Positions 25,275 to 31,977 of a stretch of 39,208 bases of DNA are shown one piece after another. The DNA comes from Bacteroidota bacterium. GTDB lineage: Bacteria > Bacteroidota > Ignavibacteria > Ignavibacteriales > Ignavibacteriaceae. The stretch is taken from NCBI GenBank assembly GCA_021824565.1, contig JAKAKL010000119.1, positions 1 to 39,208 of the forward strand, read 5' to 3'. Numbering within the stretch: position 1 is the first letter of the stretch; each line of letters opens with the position of its first letter. The notes under the pieces are model-generated. The model was not told where the DNA came from. It was given only the letters and a program-made list of their open reading frames with translations, and searched no databases. The position numbers were made by a program, and so were the translations under genes.

Positions 25275-25346
25275 AAGAGCATAGCACGAAGAGCAAAGAG
25301 AAAGCAGTTTATTGTCTTTCTCATTGCCCTTTGCTCTATGCGCTCA
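25275..25346. terminator. Long imperfect hairpin between convergent genes
   Basis: Left arm AGAGCATAG...AGAGCAAAGAGAAAG pairs imperfectly with CTTTCTCATTGCCCTTTGCTCTATGCGCTC. It occupies the whole gap between the M1 peptidase and cysG stops, and the right end overlaps the cysG stop. It is probably a bidirectional terminator, although the T-run is poor. Confidence 0.5.
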
Positions 25347-26645
25347 AAATACTTGAATCAGCTTTTCCTTCATAATAGGATATAACTTTTCATGCAGTTT
25401 TACAACATCTCCGAAAACAAGCACCGCCGGTCTCTCAGCTTCTTTTGCTAATGCAGGCAGATTTGAAAAAGTTGAAGTAAGAACTTTCTGATTATCTTTT
25501 GAAGCGTTTGATACAACGGCAGCCGGAAGGTCTTCTCTAATTCCTCTTCTAAATCCTTCTTCAATAATTTCATCCGCTCTTGTTAATCCCATCAAAACAA
25601 TTGTTGTGTGCTTTTTTATTTTCAAAAGATCAAGCCAATCAAAATTGTTTTTTCCTGTCCCGTTGCACGCGGTAACAATAGAAACACCGGAAGATAAATT
25701 TCTATGCGTCGGAGGAATACCGGCAAGCATCGGCGCGGCGAACGCTGATGAAATACCGGGCACTATTTCAACTTCAACATTATTATCAATTAAAAACTCT
25801 GCCTCTTCTCCTCCTCTTCCGAAAATAAATGGATCTCCTCCTTTTAATCTTGCCACTCTGTTTCCGGCTTTCGCGTATTGAAGCATCACTTTATTAATAT
25901 CTTCCTGGCTGAAGAGATGATGCCCTTTCTCTTTGCCAACGCTGAATATCTCCGCGTCTTCCTTTGCGAATGAAAGCACTTCTTCAGTTACAAGGAAATC
26001 ATGAAGTATTATATCTGCTTCACGGATTTTCTTCAATGCCTTGAGAGTCAAATAATCTGCGCTCCCCGGTCCGCATCCTACCAAAAATACTTTTCCAAAT
26101 GCTTCCTTAATTTCTCTTTTAGTTTCTTCAACGTTAATAATATTTTTTGACCTTTCAACCGACTTATTCAATGCGACGTCTCCAAGCCGCGTTGGAATAA
26201 TTTCTTTTATTCTATTTCTAACCTCTTGCGTTAAAGCTGGACTTGCGCCATCGCTTGAAACGGCAATTTTCAGATTATTATAAATCAAAAGCGAAGAGAA
26301 ATAGAAATCGCATTCTTCCGGCTTGTCAACCGAATTTACCAGCAGGAATCTTTTCTCTTTTACTCTGTCAAGGGTTTTCTTCACTTCGGGATTACCTGTG
26401 GCATCAACGATAATATTAAAATCTTCCGCGTCATACTCTTCAAATTTCTTTTGAAGGAATTCCACTCCGGACATTTTGATTTCGTCATTTATAGATATTG
26501 AGATTACTTTAAAATCAATATTGTTCGCCTTCATTACTTTCGCTTTTTGAAGCGCTACTTTCCCGCCTCCGATCAGAAGCATCTTTTGATCTTTAAGCAG
26601 AAGAGGCAAAGTTTTATTTAAGTACTTAGCAAAGCTGTTATTCAT
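25344..26645 (-). CDS. cysG: Siroheme synthase (precorrin-2 dehydrogenase/ferrochelatase plus uroporphyrinogen-III methyltransferase)
   Basis: A 433-residue bifunctional enzyme making siroheme, the cofactor of the adjacent sulfite reductase. The N-terminal module has LLIGGGKVALQKA (about 23-35) for NAD, then NSVDKPEECDF and SSDGASPALTQ. The C-terminal module is a SAM-dependent methyltransferase with VGCGPGSADYLTLKAL, GGDPFIFGRGGEE and PGISSAFAAPMLAGIPPTHR. It has the same fused layout as E. coli CysG (457). It is the last gene of the cys operon, 12 nt after cysI. Using SAM itself, it ties siroheme production to the metabolite sensed by the operon's riboswitch. Confidence 0.95.
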   Translation of the reverse strand: MNNSFAKYLNKTLPLLLKDQKMLLIGGGKVALQKAKVMKANNIDFKVISISINDEIKMSGVEFLQKKFEEYDAEDFNIIVDATGNPEVKKTLDRVKEKRFLLVNSVDKPEECDFYFSSLLIYNNLKIAVSSDGASPALTQEVRNRIKEIIPTRLGDVALNKSVERSKNIINVEETKREIKEAFGKVFLVGCGPGSADYLTLKALKKIREADIILHDFLVTEEVLSFAKEDAEIFSVGKEKGHHLFSQEDINKVMLQYAKAGNRVARLKGGDPFIFGRGGEEAEFLIDNNVEVEIVPGISSAFAAPMLAGIPPTHRNLSSGVSIVTACNGTGKNNFDWLDLLKIKKHTTIVLMGLTRADEIIEEGFRRGIREDLPAAVVSNASKDNQKVLTSTFSNLPALAKEAERPAVLVFGDVVKLHEKLYPIMKEKLIQVF

Positions 26646-26657
26646 AGTGTATACTTT

Positions 26658-28547
26658 CTATACTAAAAAAGGATCGCTGATCTTTTCCATAAGCTGCGCG
26701 GTATTCTCATTGCTCATTAAATATCTAACAACTCCGCTCATTCCAATTCTTTTGTGGAACTGACTTATTTCATTTTCCTCGTCTGTTTTATTTTCCAGAT
26801 AGTTGTCAATCAATGCCGAAATAACGTTAGCGGCTTCTTCTTTCGGAATTGAACGAAGAAATTTTTTACCGTCGCATATTATGTCTTTAGCAAGATTCTC
26901 TTCGTCGGTTATTCCGAACAACAGTTTAAGCTGATAAATATCATCGCCCTTTCCTTCAATTGAAATTCCGTAACGGATGTTGCGGGAGCAATGTCTCTCG
27001 CATCCGCTTATGCCTATTGATACTCCGTCTGCGTTAGCATAGCCTCTTGCTTCAAGCTCGGAAATCAGCGGCTCAAAATATTTCTCAGATTCAGCGACAG
27101 CAAGCGGACATGTATTAAGCCCTACGCAAGCTTCGGAATTTATTTTAAGTTTCGAATAATTACCGTATCCGTATTTCTCTAAGATTACTTCCAAAATATT
27201 TTTTGAAGATTCTTCTATACCGGTAAAAAGAATATCTTGTGTCGGCTGAATTCTTATTGTTGGTTTTACGGCAGATACAATTTCATCAACTAAAGATTTT
27301 ACTTTCCCCTGCGGGTTTGAATCGCTTACTCTTCCATTCTGAATCCACAGACCGTAACTCCACTTGCCGTCATGCTGCTTTATCCAGCCGTGGTGCTTTG
27401 CTACTTTGCCTAAATCAAATTCAACGGGCGGATGAACTTTAACGCCGAGCTTTTCAACCTGCTCTCTGTACCAATCAATACCAAGCTGTCTGACTTTCCT
27501 AAAAATATTTTCATCAAGCAATATAGATTCAAAAGAATACGAAGTGTGCTCAAGACCTTTTGTGATTAGTATGTTTTTTATTCTTGCCCAATGCCTGTTC
27601 TTGCGGTCGCCGACTTGCGAGAATACTTTTCCAATCGCATCAAGTCCTTTCATCAATTCAACTTCAGTGCGAAATATTCCAAGTGGTCCTGAAAGCATCG
27701 GGAAAGTTGCTTTACCGTTTTTCTGTCCGAGGCTTCCGCCGATGTAAACTTGATAACCAGTTACAATATTATGCTCAACAATTGGGACAATTGAAACATC
27801 ACTTGTAAGAACATCGTTACAGTTGCATCGCACTTCTTTTTGAAGTTCTTCATCGTAATAATATCCTCCGACGGCAATCTTAAACTTTCTCGGAAAACCG
27901 AAATCCGAATATTTAAATCCTGCTTCGCGAGGTTCCGCTTCTCTATCATTGTCATAAACTTTATAGTATTCCGAAAGAGGCAACTGGAAATATTTCCCTA
28001 TTTCCCTTGCGAGCGCATTCGCATCAAAGATATTTGATTTATGCGGGCATGCGGTAGGATTCCTCGCGTTGTCGCCGCAGCCATTTAGGGTAATTGCGCC
28101 TGTCTCCATCAAGCCTCTTACAAGAGGAATCAAATTCTTTTTTTCGACACGATGGAACTGCATGTTTTGACGGGTTGTTAATCTAATTGATGGCAAACCT
28201 TCATCGCTTCTTGAATAAAGTTCGGCGAGATTGCTTACACGTTTCCAGTTATCGGGAGAAATATCTCCTCCGCCCCACACGCTGTCTCTAACCATGAAGA
28301 ACCATTCACGTACATAGTCTTTTATCTGCGCGCGGTCAAACTGAATATAAATTCCGCCCGGCTTTAAGCTTATCTGAATATCTTTGTCAACATCCGGCTT
28401 AGATAAATCTTCAAGTTCTTTCCGCAGTTCTTCGCCGCCGAGCAGTTTAGTTTTTTGCTTTATCAATTCATCTTTACTTAGATTCCGCTCACCAAGCGCG
28501 TACTCAAGCCCGCCTAGATCAACATCATATTTTTTTATTTTATTCAT
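26658..28547 (-). CDS. cysI: Sulfite reductase hemoprotein (nitrite/sulfite reductase family)
   Basis: Six-electron reduction of sulfite to sulfide by a siroheme-[4Fe-4S] centre. The 629 residues contain the substrate-binding RLTTRQNMQFH, DNARNPTACPH and PRKFKIAVGG (paired Lys). Two cluster motifs follow: CVGLNTCPLA (Cx5C) and SGCERHC (Cx3C). No CysJ flavoprotein gene follows, so electrons probably come from ferredoxin or another donor. Sulfite, not nitrite, is the likely substrate because the gene sits between cysN and cysG. The start is 6 nt after cysN. Confidence 0.93.
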   Translation of the reverse strand: MNKIKKYDVDLGGLEYALGERNLSKDELIKQKTKLLGGEELRKELEDLSKPDVDKDIQISLKPGGIYIQFDRAQIKDYVREWFFMVRDSVWGGGDISPDNWKRVSNLAELYSRSDEGLPSIRLTTRQNMQFHRVEKKNLIPLVRGLMETGAITLNGCGDNARNPTACPHKSNIFDANALAREIGKYFQLPLSEYYKVYDNDREAEPREAGFKYSDFGFPRKFKIAVGGYYYDEELQKEVRCNCNDVLTSDVSIVPIVEHNIVTGYQVYIGGSLGQKNGKATFPMLSGPLGIFRTEVELMKGLDAIGKVFSQVGDRKNRHWARIKNILITKGLEHTSYSFESILLDENIFRKVRQLGIDWYREQVEKLGVKVHPPVEFDLGKVAKHHGWIKQHDGKWSYGLWIQNGRVSDSNPQGKVKSLVDEIVSAVKPTIRIQPTQDILFTGIEESSKNILEVILEKYGYGNYSKLKINSEACVGLNTCPLAVAESEKYFEPLISELEARGYANADGVSIGISGCERHCSRNIRYGISIEGKGDDIYQLKLLFGITDEENLAKDIICDGKKFLRSIPKEEAANVISALIDNYLENKTDEENEISQFHKRIGMSGVVRYLMSNENTAQLMEKISDPFLV

Positions 28548-28553
28548 TTTCTT

Positions 28554-29930
28554 TTAATTATTAATATTTTCAAATTTTATTTCCTCCAGGGATTTTACTT
28601 CCCAGTGAGGAAAGTGTTTTCTGATCAAGTTATTTAATTCAAGTTCAAAGGGATGATAAGCATTGTTATTCCGACGCTTCACATTTGCGTTTGAAGTAAT
28701 AAATCCGCCGCCGCTAATATCAAACTCATCTACAATTACAAACCGGCTTGTAGATGCCAACTCATTATTCAAATCAAAGCTTACAGGAGCCTCTGTATGA
28801 ATAATACATTGTGCAACTTCGTGCCTGTGGATTTCATTTCTGCCTGTAAGATTTTCAAGTACGGAAGCATCTAGAATATGCTCAATTGTTTCGATAACGC
28901 AATTTGTTTTATTTGTACCAATCTTGAGTTTATAATTTTTGCCAGGTGTTAAAGTCTTTTTCCCCATCCAAAAAATATTCACTCTGAATCTATCGGAAGT
29001 ATGCGGCTGCTTTTCATTTATTTTGCAGATAAGCTCGGAAGGCGTGACATAAATTTGAGTTTCAAGCGTAATGCCTATTGCTTCGCCTGCTGTTGCCGTT
29101 GATCGCTTTGGCTTATTAAAATTTTCTATAGACTTCACTTTTGAAATTTTTCTCGACGGTAGAAAAATTATTTCATCACCGGCAGCAATTGTGCCCGAAG
29201 CAATAGTTCCTGCAATTATTCTTCTATCGTCGCTGCCTGCGGTAAATTTATAAACTCCTTGTACAAACATTCTAAAATTATTTTGTTCTTCATCTTTCTC
29301 CTTTTTGAAATCATCGATCAGCTCGATAATTGTTTTCCCGCTGTACCAGGGCATTTTATCCGAATCATTCGTTATATTAATTCCATTCCTAGCCGATACC
29401 GGTACAAAAGCCGCAGGCTGAATACCGATTTCATCAAGGTAATAGATATAATCTTTTCTAATTTTCAAAAATGTTTCTTCGCTGTAATCGACAAGATCCA
29501 TTTTGTTAACTGCAACGACAACTTGCTTTATTCCAAGCAGCGAGAGCATGTAGGCATGCCGCTTTGAATTATCTGCGATACCTTCTTCAGCATCGATTAA
29601 CAATACTGCCGCTTCCGCACGAGCCGCGCCGCTTATCATGTTCTTTAAGAATTCTATATGCCCTGGTGCGTCGATTATTATGTATTCGCGCTTTGCGGTA
29701 TTAAAAAAAATTCTAGCGGTATCGATTGTTATGCCCTGCGCCTGTTCATCCGCAAGCGCGTCGAGAAGGAACGCATATTCAAACGGCTTTGAATTAATTT
29801 CACAATTTCTTTTTACCTGCTCAAGCTTTCCTTGTGGCAGAGAATTCGTATCAACTAACAAGCGTCCTATCAAAGTACTTTTGCCGTGATCAACATGACC
29901 GACAACAACTATATTCATTCTTTCTTTCAT
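28554..29930 (-). CDS. cysN: Sulfate adenylyltransferase subunit 1 (GTPase)
   Basis: The regulatory GTPase of ATP sulfurylase, which works with CysD to make adenosine phosphosulfate (APS). The 458 residues show the G1 loop GHVDHGKST, the G3 motif DAPGHIEFL and the G4 motif NKMD, then the EF-Tu-like domains 2 and 3. The length matches stand-alone CysN, so no APS kinase (CysC) domain is fused. The ATG at 29930 has AAGG 7 nt upstream; an in-frame ATG 12 nt later also exists. Confidence 0.96.
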
Positions 29931-29951
29931 CAACTTACCTTCAATTTAAAA

Positions 29952-30833
29952 TTACATATAACCATCGCGCCTTAATGCTTCAAGAGTTCCGCCGCCGTCT
30001 TTATCCTGCTCTCTTCCGGATCGTTCAGCAATGTTAGCGAACTTTCCGCTTCTCAACTCTTCAATAATTTCTTTCACGTTCTTTGCGGAAGATTCGACAG
30101 GTTTGGTGCAAGGATAGCATCCCAGCGAACGGTATCTTGTCCCGGAACCATTATCAAAATAAATTGGAATTATCGGGATGTTCTCTCTTTCCAAATATTC
30201 CCATATATTCAGTTCTGTCCAGTCAAGCAGAGGATGAATTCTTATGTGAGTGCCCGGGGCAAAATCAGTTTTAAACTGGTTCCATAATTCGGGCGGCTGA
30301 TCGCCGATATCCCAATCGTTATTTTTATCCCTCGGAGAGAAATATCTTTCTTTAGACCTGCTGCCTTCTTCATCAGCTCTTACTCCTACAATTACACCTG
30401 TGTATGATGTTCTATCCTCATGTTCAAAAAATTCCCCGGAATTATTATCTAATTTGTATCTGGCCCATTCCCCGGATAAAGTATGCTTTAATGCTTCCGA
30501 CTTAAGATTTTTGCAGCATGTAATTCGGTCAACTTGCCCATCTGGAAAAGTAAGTTTGTCTTTTAATGCTTGTTTATTTTGCCCAACAATTAAATTTAAT
30601 TTCCATTCGCGGGCTAATCTATTACGATATTCTATCATCGCCGGTATTTTATATGAAGTATCTATATGAACAAGAGGAAACGGCACATGTCCGAAGAAAG
30701 CTTTTTTAGCAAGCCACAACATTACGGTGCTGTCTTTTCCAATCGACCAGAGCATAGCAAGATTTTTAAATTCTCTATAAGCTTCTCTAAGTATATAAAC
30801 GCTTTGTGCTTCTAATTTATCTAAATAATCCAT
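29952..30833 (-). CDS. cysD: Sulfate adenylyltransferase subunit 2
   Basis: The catalytic half of ATP sulfurylase. The start at 30833 gives [19 protein letters not shown], the classic CysD N-terminus, and 293 residues. A longer reading to 30899 overlaps cysH and is rejected. The PP-loop reads [13 protein letters not shown]. Later [10 protein letters not shown] and the C-terminal [21 protein letters not shown] are characteristic. It lies 11 nt after cysH and 21 nt before cysN. Confidence 0.96.
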
Positions 30834-30844
30834 AGGTCTTTCTG

Positions 30845-31546
30845 TTATTGTTTTATATGAAGTCCGCATTCTTTTGTTTCGGGATTTTCCCACCACCATC
30901 TTCCGCTCCTGGAATCTTCGCCTTCTTTAATTTCTCTTGTGCATGGAGCGCATCCGATGCTCTTATAATTTTTATGATAAAGATTATTGTACGGGACATT
31001 ATTTTTTCTAATGTAATCCCAAACTTCGGATTCGGTCCAGTTTATTATTGGATTAATTTTCAGAATATTATTGTTTTTATCGGGTTCAACAACATTTATG
31101 CTCTCTCTTGTTATTGACTGCTCTTTTCTCAATCCGCAAATCCATGCGTCAAGATCTTTCAAAGCTCTTTTCAGCGGCTCGACTTTTCTATTATAGCAGC
31201 AAAGCTTTCTATCTTCTATGCTGTTGTAAAATAAGTTCATGCCTTTTTCCTTAATCATTCCTTCGACCAGATTACTGTTCGGGAAAAGCACATCAATTTT
31301 GCTGTCGTAAAAATTATTTGTTTCATCAATTAGTTTATAGGTTTCATAAGGAAGCCTGCCGGTATCTAAAGTAAAAATCTTCACATTCACATCTATCTTC
31401 AATATCATATCAGTCAGTACCTGATCTTCTATGCTTAAGCTCGACGCAAGCGCTATCTTCTTTCCGTATTTACTTAAAAAATACCTTAGAATGTCTTCTG
31501 CAGGCTTCTTATCAAATAATAAATTAAGTTCTTCTATCTCATTCAT
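30845..31546 (-). CDS. cysH: Adenylyl-sulfate (APS) reductase, assimilatory
   Basis: Reduces APS directly to sulfite with thioredoxin. The 233 residues contain two paired-cysteine motifs, KLCCYNRK (CC) and GCAPCTRE (CxxC). Those bind the [4Fe-4S] cluster of APS reductases and are absent from PAPS-using CysH. The C-terminal ECGLHIKQ carries the catalytic Cys. The lack of cysC in the operon fits direct APS use. It is the first gene after the long regulatory leader (31590-31977). Confidence 0.95.
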
Positions 31547-31589: not shown

Positions 31590-31628
31590 AATAAAAAACC
31601 TCTCCGGGATGATTACTCGAAGAGGTTT
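31590..31628 (-). terminator. Terminator 2: expression platform of the SAM-I riboswitch
   Basis: On the minus strand AACCTCT (31627-31621) pairs with AGAGGTT (31603-31597), followed by T-rich TTTTATT. The loop contains an ATCATC that can pair with GATGA of the riboswitch P1 3' strand (31650-31646). TCTTC (31623-31619) can pair with the following GAAGA. These give an antiterminator when SAM is absent. Confidence 0.8.
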
Positions 31629-31772: not shown

Positions 31773-31812
31773 TATAATAAAAAACCCTTCTCGATTAGGT
31801 TCGGGAAGGGTT
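31773..31812 (-). terminator. Terminator 1: attenuator after the Cys/Met leader peptide
   Basis: On the minus strand AACCCTTC (31812-31805) pairs with GAAGGGTT (31790-31783). CGA/TCG extends the stem after a C/A mismatch, and a run of T follows. The 5' arm CCCTTCC (31810-31804) is perfectly complementary to GGAAGGG (31855-31849) inside the leader reading frame, giving a mutually exclusive antiterminator. Confidence 0.85.
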
Positions 31813-31838
31813 CATCAAAAAAATTATTTATTAAAAAA

Positions 31839-31934
31839 TTAGTATGTGCCCTTCCATAGTGATGAATCCATCATACAGCAGCAACACATCGCCGTTAATC
31901 CGCTTAAATTAATATGTAAATTTTTGTTCTTCAT
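31839..31934 (-). CDS. Regulatory leader peptide with seven consecutive Met/Cys codons
   Basis: A 31-codon reading frame, MKNKNLHINLSGLTA then Met-Cys-Cys-Cys-Cys-Met-Met (codons 16-22) then DSSLWKGTY and TAA. It is the first ATG after a Bacteroidota-type promoter, with a predicted 5' UTR of only about 10 nt and no clear Shine-Dalgarno. The last Cys codon is 19 nt before the antiterminator strand GGAAGGG. That strand lies only 7-13 nt before the stop codon. A ribosome stalled at the Cys codons would leave the strand free; one that reaches the stop would cover it. This is the geometry of amino acid biosynthetic attenuators, here for Cys and possibly Met. Confidence 0.8.
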   Translation of the reverse strand: MKNKNLHINLSGLTAMCCCCMMDSSLWKGTY

Positions 31935-31946
31935 TTTTTATTGTCG

Positions 31947-31977
31947 CAAAGGTAAAGCATAAATCCTCCCATGTCAA
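31947..31977 (-). promoter_or_regulatory. Bacteroidota-type promoter of the cys operon
   Basis: TTGACA (31977-31972) and TACCTTTG (31954-31947) match TTG-N20-TAnnTTTG exactly. Transcription should start about 7 nt later, a few bases before the leader peptide ATG at 31934. Confidence 0.7.

Follow-up and report, generated by a model that had tools for sequence, protein, structure and literature searches.

A putative cysteine/methionine leader-peptide attenuator in series with a SAM-I riboswitch before a sulfate-assimilation operon of Ignavibacteriaceae

Architecture of the locus

The locus described here lies on the minus strand of a 39,208-nucleotide stretch of DNA (hereafter the window) that belongs to a 4.59 Mb draft genome of a Bacteroidota bacterium from the family Ignavibacteriaceae. 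The first structural gene of its sulfate-assimilation operon is a cysH-like (phospho)adenylylsulfate reductase gene (30845–31546), followed by cysD (29952–30899), cysN (28554–29933), a sulfite reductase gene (sir, 26658–28547) and a siroheme synthase-like gene of the cysG type (25344–26645), all on the minus strand. Counting the window's own, 5 of 59 near-relative genomes have a match to cysH, which may point to a mobile operon or to its frequent loss. Upstream of the control region an alpha/beta hydrolase gene is located on the same strand; its stop codon is separated from the ATG of a short leader frame by 217 nt.

Transcription signals and leader follow each other closely on the minus strand. 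A promoter-like pair (31947–31977) is composed of TTGACA (31972–31977) and TACCTTTG (31947–31954), and we take the latter to resemble the TAnnTTTG -7 box of Bacteroidota. The leader ATG stands 12 nt past this -7-like box and opens a frame of 31 codons (MKNKNLHINLSGLTAMCCCCMMDSSLWKGTY and a stop codon, 31839–31934) with related leaders elsewhere. Codons 16–22 (31869–31889; ATG TGT TGC TGC TGT ATG ATG) read Met-Cys-Cys-Cys-Cys-Met-Met, and the cysteine run itself occupies codons 17–20 of 31, i.e. mid-frame. Codons 27–29 include the sequence GGAAGGG (strand 2, 31849–31855), which lies 19 nt past the last cysteine codon and 7 nt ahead of the stop codon. A protector hairpin of strand 1 with strand 2 is predicted to span the cysteine codons together with GGAAGGG (31844–31889; -15.1 kcal/mol, z -1.5). 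Terminator 1 (CCCTTCCCGAACCTAATCGAGAAGGG, 31785–31810) begins 28 nt downstream of the leader stop, is conserved across related leaders and is built from strand 3 (CCCTTCC, 31804–31810), strand 4 (GAAGGG, 31785–31790) and a run of six T (31779–31784). Its 5' arm is complementary to GGAAGGG, the putative antiterminator partner. The first-pass annotation of this DNA had described the promoter, the 31-codon frame, the regulatory codons, the terminator and this complementarity, and its coordinates, codons and distances were all confirmed on the minus strand. With up to two mismatches allowed, the core ATGTGYTGYTGYTGYATGATG has a single occurrence in the window, and 100 shuffles gave none. A simple scan for sigma-70 promoters and terminators listed neither the promoter nor any of the two terminators of this region; its rules (sigma-70 hexamers, hairpin loops of 3–8 nt) are unsuited to them, and the promoters it did list were no more numerous than in shuffles (2 vs 3.3).

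The same annotation had read the leader as an attenuator. This reading is supported and has to be extended, since a second attenuator follows the leader in series. Just over 20 nt past terminator 1 a SAM-I riboswitch aptamer begins (RF00162, 31643–31754, minus strand), which is matched completely from position 1 to 108 by Rfam with 72.2 bits at a gathering threshold of 44.4. It is followed by terminator 2 (31599–31625, minus strand), seen in the sequence as the expression platform of the riboswitch, and then by a T run. Both elements precede cysH and were absent from the earlier finding; with the riboswitch between them, the leader stop and the first structural gene are about 290 nt apart. As a complete riboswitch with its own terminator comes after the leader, the cysH-cysD-cysN-sir-cysG-like operon stands behind two putative attenuators in series.

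Related leaders and their target genes

The arrangement is found twice in this genome. Before metY the same tandem is present, i.e. a leader (MNKIFINIAKKFNHEAMCCCCMMMCMSSREDAA and a stop codon), a terminator and a SAM riboswitch. For a census in the order, 121 upstream regions were examined (67 of 72 metY and 53 of 77 cysK places found, in addition to the cysH of the window). The leader rule asked for a terminator at most 480 nt from the gene and a frame of at least 12 codons with at least three Cys/Met within 8 codons and a stop codon beginning 13–50 nt before the terminator. It returned 54 leaders or, with identical ones counted once, 52 (38 before metY, 13 before cysK and one before cysH); they share ancestry and are not to be counted as independent events. 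A promoter-like pair similar to that of the window precedes 26 of the 52, vs 5.2% of random stretches. At cysK the rule found leaders in only 13 of the 53 loci examined and none before the cysK of the window's own genome (L107). A related leader occurs in the family member G025, the same leader being present in MGZZ01000153.1 (Ignavibacteria bacterium GWC2_36_12).

In the order, upstream sequence is available for four cysH loci (the window, G039, G051 and G056), each of which shows a Cys/Met leader at the operon or ahead of it. In G039 the leader contains MMMAMCMCM and precedes a transporter-cysH operon; by Pfam the transporter comprises a solute-binding protein, a permease and an ATPase, from which we infer sulfate transport. 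Leaders like MMMAMCMCM (L330) are missed by a detector of adjacent cysteines and were recognised by eye. In the cysH operons of two relatives (L005:1017–1157 and L006:1034–1147, plus strand) the Cys leader and terminator are followed by a second frame ending in ..MCNNCMCCC or ..CACCC directly before the stop codon, ahead of a gene for a small membrane protein, which Pfam assigns to DUF2061 in L006. This second frame is reminiscent of translational polycysteine control, and with it the operon would have two cysteine sensors in series.

In the class outside the order such leaders were recognised, by reading the output, at 4 of 22 metY loci, one of the 22 being without upstream sequence. A cysH search across the phylum covered 345 genomes with matches in 120; among the 26 listed loci from outside the order that were inspected none has a leader, both the adjacent-Cys and the Cys+Met detector being negative. 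A Calditrichaeota draft genome (L077) shows leader, terminator and SAM riboswitch before metY, a locus that may be mis-binned or transferred. In a Lachnospiraceae draft genome (around L083:3120–3140, plus strand) a frame ending in ..VMCCCCMMIK before its stop codon lies 38 nt ahead of cysK, with no terminator detected; it represents possible translational cysteine control in another phylum.

Pattern searches were of unequal value. In 164 genomes of the order the bare pattern TGYTGYTGYTGYATG was matched 66 times, vs 7 times for the reversed control, and is weak evidence as such: a detector found leader and terminator at 9 of the 66 places and the others look like chance; all nine precede metY, cysK or cysH. 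When 245 genomes of the class were searched for this pattern, the sole new site flagged among the matches listed (L252) was dismissed because of its poor hairpin tail and because the next frame is no recognisable sulfur gene. A scan of a genome collection returned 20 stretches, five of them leader plus terminator before metY; a Photobacterium stretch and most of the others look like chance.

A covariance model was built from 19 leaders, one of them the metY leader of the window's genome, with the window itself left out. It scores the window leader with 85.1 bits (E 8.6e-14), the next match in the window reaching 17.4 bits. With 93 candidates scored per genome, the two strong matches in the window's genome are those before metY (92.9 bits) and cysH (85.1 bits); two further ones of 35.7 and 32.4 bits are unconvincing. 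A gene-blind search of 41 genomes, again with 93 candidates scored in each, gave 26 matches with E at or below 4.9e-7, of which by our own tally 14 were already in the model and 12 were new. Ten of the new matches stand before sulfur or thiol genes: metY in G007, G004, G010, G003 and G019, cysH in the window, the transporter-cysH operon in G039, cysK in G043, a DUF4395-cysK pair in G006 and a gamma-glutamyltranspeptidase gene in G052. The remaining two were set aside, one without a recognisable target gene (G010:C493) and one that ends at its contig end without a clear target (G008:C431).

Some of these loci deserve mention in their own right. Gamma-glutamyltranspeptidase fits thiol salvage, and the Cys-containing leader with terminator before its gene (L300:3–1655, minus strand; 65.5 bits) is less typical (MNKKKIIFNIKTNFLITLCCLLMQFILLRAATN and a stop codon), which makes this gene a possible further regulon member. 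A gene for a DUF4395 membrane protein is inserted between a Cys leader and cysK (L303:987–1475, minus strand), which suggests a role of DUF4395 in sulfur metabolism. In G008, a member of the window's genus, a leader (MKRINLNINLSTKPTAMCCCCTMMCTPLRKDAE and a stop codon), a terminator and a SAM riboswitch follow each other on the plus strand (L317:926–1230) and the contig ends before the gene.

The codon content of the leaders follows the target gene. The share of methionine in Cys+Met amounts to 0.14 before cysK (13 leaders) and 0.74 before metY (38 leaders) without any overlap (Mann-Whitney U = 0, p = 9e-8), a comparison that is independent of our rough, pattern-based split by SAM riboswitch. 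Leaders of cysK contain on average 3.85 Cys vs 0.62 Met, and those of metY are rich in Met. In this respect too the attenuator reading has to be extended: besides the cysteine codons the methionine codons count, since the mixture tracks the downstream gene.

Strand pairing and the proposed mechanism

If these leaders act as attenuators, a strand within the frame should be able to pair with the terminator arm. Such pairing reaches a score of at least 6 in 37 of the 52 leaders (window: 7) and stays below 6 in 15; it beats the leader's own shuffles at 0.05 in 36 and is no better in 16. Own arms pair with a mean score of 6.15, vs at most 5.75 across 200 swaps. For covariation the set was enlarged by ten: four leaders of the class, three that belong to cysH operons, and those of L077, L035 and L317. 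These 62 leaders comprise 24 distinct terminator arms, and strand 2 scores at least 6 in 47 of them; the own-arm mean is 6.63, and 1000 arm swaps give a mean of 5.46 (SD 0.12) and a maximum of 5.85. Up to six pair types occur at a single position of strand 2 with strand 3. Besides GGAAGGG/CCCTTCC of the window, the combinations of strand 2 and arm include GAAAGGG/CCCTTTC, GAAGCTG/CGGCTTC, AGAACGGG/CCCGTTTT, AGCAGCGG/CCGCTGCT, GTGAGAATG/CATTCTCAC and AGGAGTGGC/GCCATTCCT. Across this set of sequences, whose shared ancestry keeps either swap comparison from being a tally of independent events, the putative antiterminator strand in the frame and the 5' arm of the terminator covary.

The frame was also approached from the opposite side. 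In a frame-blind test 41 sites were picked solely by a terminator and a complementary strand 24–62 nt before it. The best frame of these sites contains on average 6.4 Cys+Met per 21 codons and the other two 1.1, and at least five Cys/Met in 21 codons are present at 34 of the 41 sites vs 3.2% of likewise-treated random stretches. One of the sites (L188) has no Cys/Met frame, and its hairpin is probably something else. The conservation check that had been proposed with the initial attenuator reading, directed at the cysteine codons, the frame and the complementary strands, has hereby been run: related leaders, covariation, frame-blind test and model score all favour an attenuator.

The geometry is of the classical kind. 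In the 37 leaders with a score of at least 6, the distance from the last Cys/Met codon to the start of strand 2 has a median of 11 nt and is no shorter than 10 nt in 32 of them, so that a ribosome stalled at that codon would leave the strand outside its edge. From where strand 2 ends to the last nucleotide of the stop codon there are 9 nt in the median (range -4 to 20), and it would therefore be mostly covered by a terminating ribosome. With a stalled ribosome, whose edges were assumed from E. coli, the antiterminator is part of the predicted fold in 35 of the 37 leaders; without ribosome the terminator is found in 36 of 37 predicted folds. Near metY leaders show a strong protector hairpin of strands 1 and 2 (mean z -3.7, n = 8 including the window, itself at -1.5). 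As this hairpin sequesters strand 2 in just 16 of the 37 leaders, default termination by way of it in the absence of translation is a prediction for the near metY group and not a general one.

Parts, spacing, conservation and covariation of the attenuator can be read directly from the compared sequences; from these we infer leader translation, stalling, read-through and an AND/NOR logic. RNA polymerase would start near 31940, judging from the promoter-like boxes, with a ribosome following on the leader frame. When charged Cys- and Met-tRNA are plentiful, the ribosome would reach the stop codon and cover strand 2, and the CCCTTCC/GAAGGG terminator would form. When Cys (or Met) is short, it would stall at codons 17–22, break the hairpin of strands 1 and 2 and free strand 2, which would then pair with the emerging CCCTTCC so that transcription continues. 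A polymerase past terminator 1 would meet the SAM riboswitch and terminate there if SAM is plentiful. Since terminators in series multiply, the operon would be read only if leader and riboswitch are both read through, i.e. it would be fully on only if Cys/Met-tRNA charging and SAM are both low.

Other explanations have to be weighed against this evidence. The terminator could end an upstream or a small independent transcript, the Cys-rich frame being the gene of a small functional peptide, for instance a metal- or thiol-binding one. The frame indeed has its own promoter-like boxes and a terminator behind it, features which such a gene would share; however, a free-standing peptide does not account for a Cys/Met mixture that shifts with the downstream gene or for strand 2 nucleotides that vary together with the terminator arm. 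Furthermore, all nine pattern-found leaders with terminator stand before metY, cysK or cysH, and ten of the 12 new strong model matches before sulfur or thiol genes, with two unclear cases, so that we give this explanation next to no weight. Control at the level of translation, where stalling at the cysteine run exposes the start of the downstream gene as in mycobacterial polycysteine frames, has its counterparts in poly-Cys frames located near the gene, both in relatives (those ending in ..MCNNCMCCC or ..CACCC before DUF2061-cysH) and 38 nt ahead of the Lachnospiraceae cysK. In the window, however, the first gene lies about 290 nt past the leader stop behind a riboswitch, and the intrinsic terminators with their T runs are conserved, which makes this mode of control very unlikely here.

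That the leader senses only methionine, or SAM via methionine, with the cysteine codons being incidental, would agree with the abundance of Met codons in metY leaders. It is difficult to reconcile with the cysK leaders, which retain their cysteine runs at few methionines, and with the four consecutive Cys codons before the Cys-pathway operon of the window, and we consider it unlikely. With these alternatives weighed, the control region very probably combines, in series before the sulfate-assimilation operon, a ribosome-mediated transcription attenuator of the classical type, with charged tRNA-Cys (and tRNA-Met) as its signal, and a SAM-I riboswitch.

Module exchange at metY and relation to known systems

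The combination of leader and riboswitch varies among the metY loci. Here riboswitches were counted by Rfam because our own SAM riboswitch pattern had missed some, and leader terminators by a looser rule (stem of 5, at most two mismatches, four T in 8). Sixty-five metY loci with enough upstream sequence were classified, two further ones being too short. Leader and SAM-I riboswitch occur together at 23; at one more (L132) the leader frame is present and no terminator was detected after it. A SAM-I riboswitch alone is found at 22 loci and a SAM-I/IV riboswitch alone at three, and 16 have no riboswitch. Of the latter, ten have two tandem leaders and four a single one under the looser rule; the last two (L175, L184) are left uncounted by it and have a leader by the stricter census rule. 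None of the 65 loci lacks both riboswitch and leader.

The ten loci with two tandem Met/Cys leaders and no SAM riboswitch (L164, L168, L169, L174, L176, L178, L179, L180, L186 and L187) have a terminator after each leader, seven of them also by the stricter rule. The three with SAM-I/IV (RF01725) instead of SAM-I (L189, L190 and L191) belong to genomes of the same family. Among the classified metY loci, leader plus riboswitch, riboswitch alone and leaders without riboswitch replace each other. It appears likely that in this clade Cys/Met attenuator and SAM-I riboswitch in series constitute a two-input RNA gate, in the evolution of which a second Met-rich leader takes the place of the riboswitch to do the same job. 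This gate would serve sulfur assimilation as well as metY operons and would be on only if charged Cys/Met-tRNA and SAM are low.

Ribosome-mediated transcription attenuators are known for amino-acid operons of the trp, his, leu and ilv type. The present leaders share with them a leader frame in which regulatory codons stand in runs, an antiterminator and an intrinsic terminator that exclude each other, and a strand 2 near the stop codon; they differ in the use of Cys and Met, in an Ignavibacteria-like host and in being followed by a riboswitch or, before some metY genes, by a second leader. Polycysteine leader frames before mycobacterial cys operons were reportedly described by Canestrari et al. 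in 2020. Attenuators of trp in Bacteroidota (bacteroid-trp) have been described since the 2010 survey mentioned below.

According to the accessible part of an earlier study, Cys leader frames before cys operons of Actinobacteria lack conserved terminator hairpins and have their Cys codons near the stop (PMC1262725). As far as that text goes, the likeness to the mycobacterial polycysteine frames consists in a Cys codon run in a short frame before sulfur genes (PMC1262725), whereas the run of the window lies mid-frame and terminator and antiterminator are conserved here. The uORFC-8-2 motif before cysS of Rhodobacterales, which has tandem Cys codons and a terminator, is likewise predicted to be a Cys attenuator; in the part of the source available, it differs by having two Cys codons, a tRNA synthetase gene as target, another phylum as host and no riboswitch described (PMC8632094). 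For Salmonella mgtCBR, two attenuators with different signals (ATP and proline) in one leader are outlined in the text available, both acting via tandem frames (PMC3641672), in contrast with the tRNA-Cys/Met and SAM-I riboswitch pair proposed here. The second module of the window is a complete SAM-I (S-box) riboswitch (RF00162) and differs from it by standing behind a leader-peptide attenuator.

A survey of premature terminators from 2010 states in its accessible portion that, an atypical case aside, no leader peptide system was known outside Proteobacteria and Actinobacteria before its own Firmicutes case (PMC2965389). In the part available of a survey of RNA regulons SAM-Chlorobi is listed and the words leader peptide are not used (PMC3766115). 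A Cys/Met leader attenuator in this clade, or one in series with a SAM riboswitch, was not found by our literature search, most subscription papers lying outside its reach. Since Cys leader frames, a Cys attenuator and tandem attenuators were reported earlier, the kind of mechanism is old; what appears to be new within the searchable literature is the clade, the pairing of Cys/Met codons with a terminator of the classical type, and the serial arrangement with a SAM riboswitch that can be exchanged.

As the tandem of leader and riboswitch recurs before other sulfur amino-acid genes of relatives, these bacteria probably read their sulfur supply twice on one mRNA. If it works as proposed, a single transcript would gauge the pathway's end products on two levels, namely as aminoacyl-tRNA and as cofactor. 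The metY loci can be considered a natural experiment: upstream of one and the same gene, RNA aptamer and translated sensor substitute for one another, and this interchange would make the question of how such sensors get swapped directly testable.
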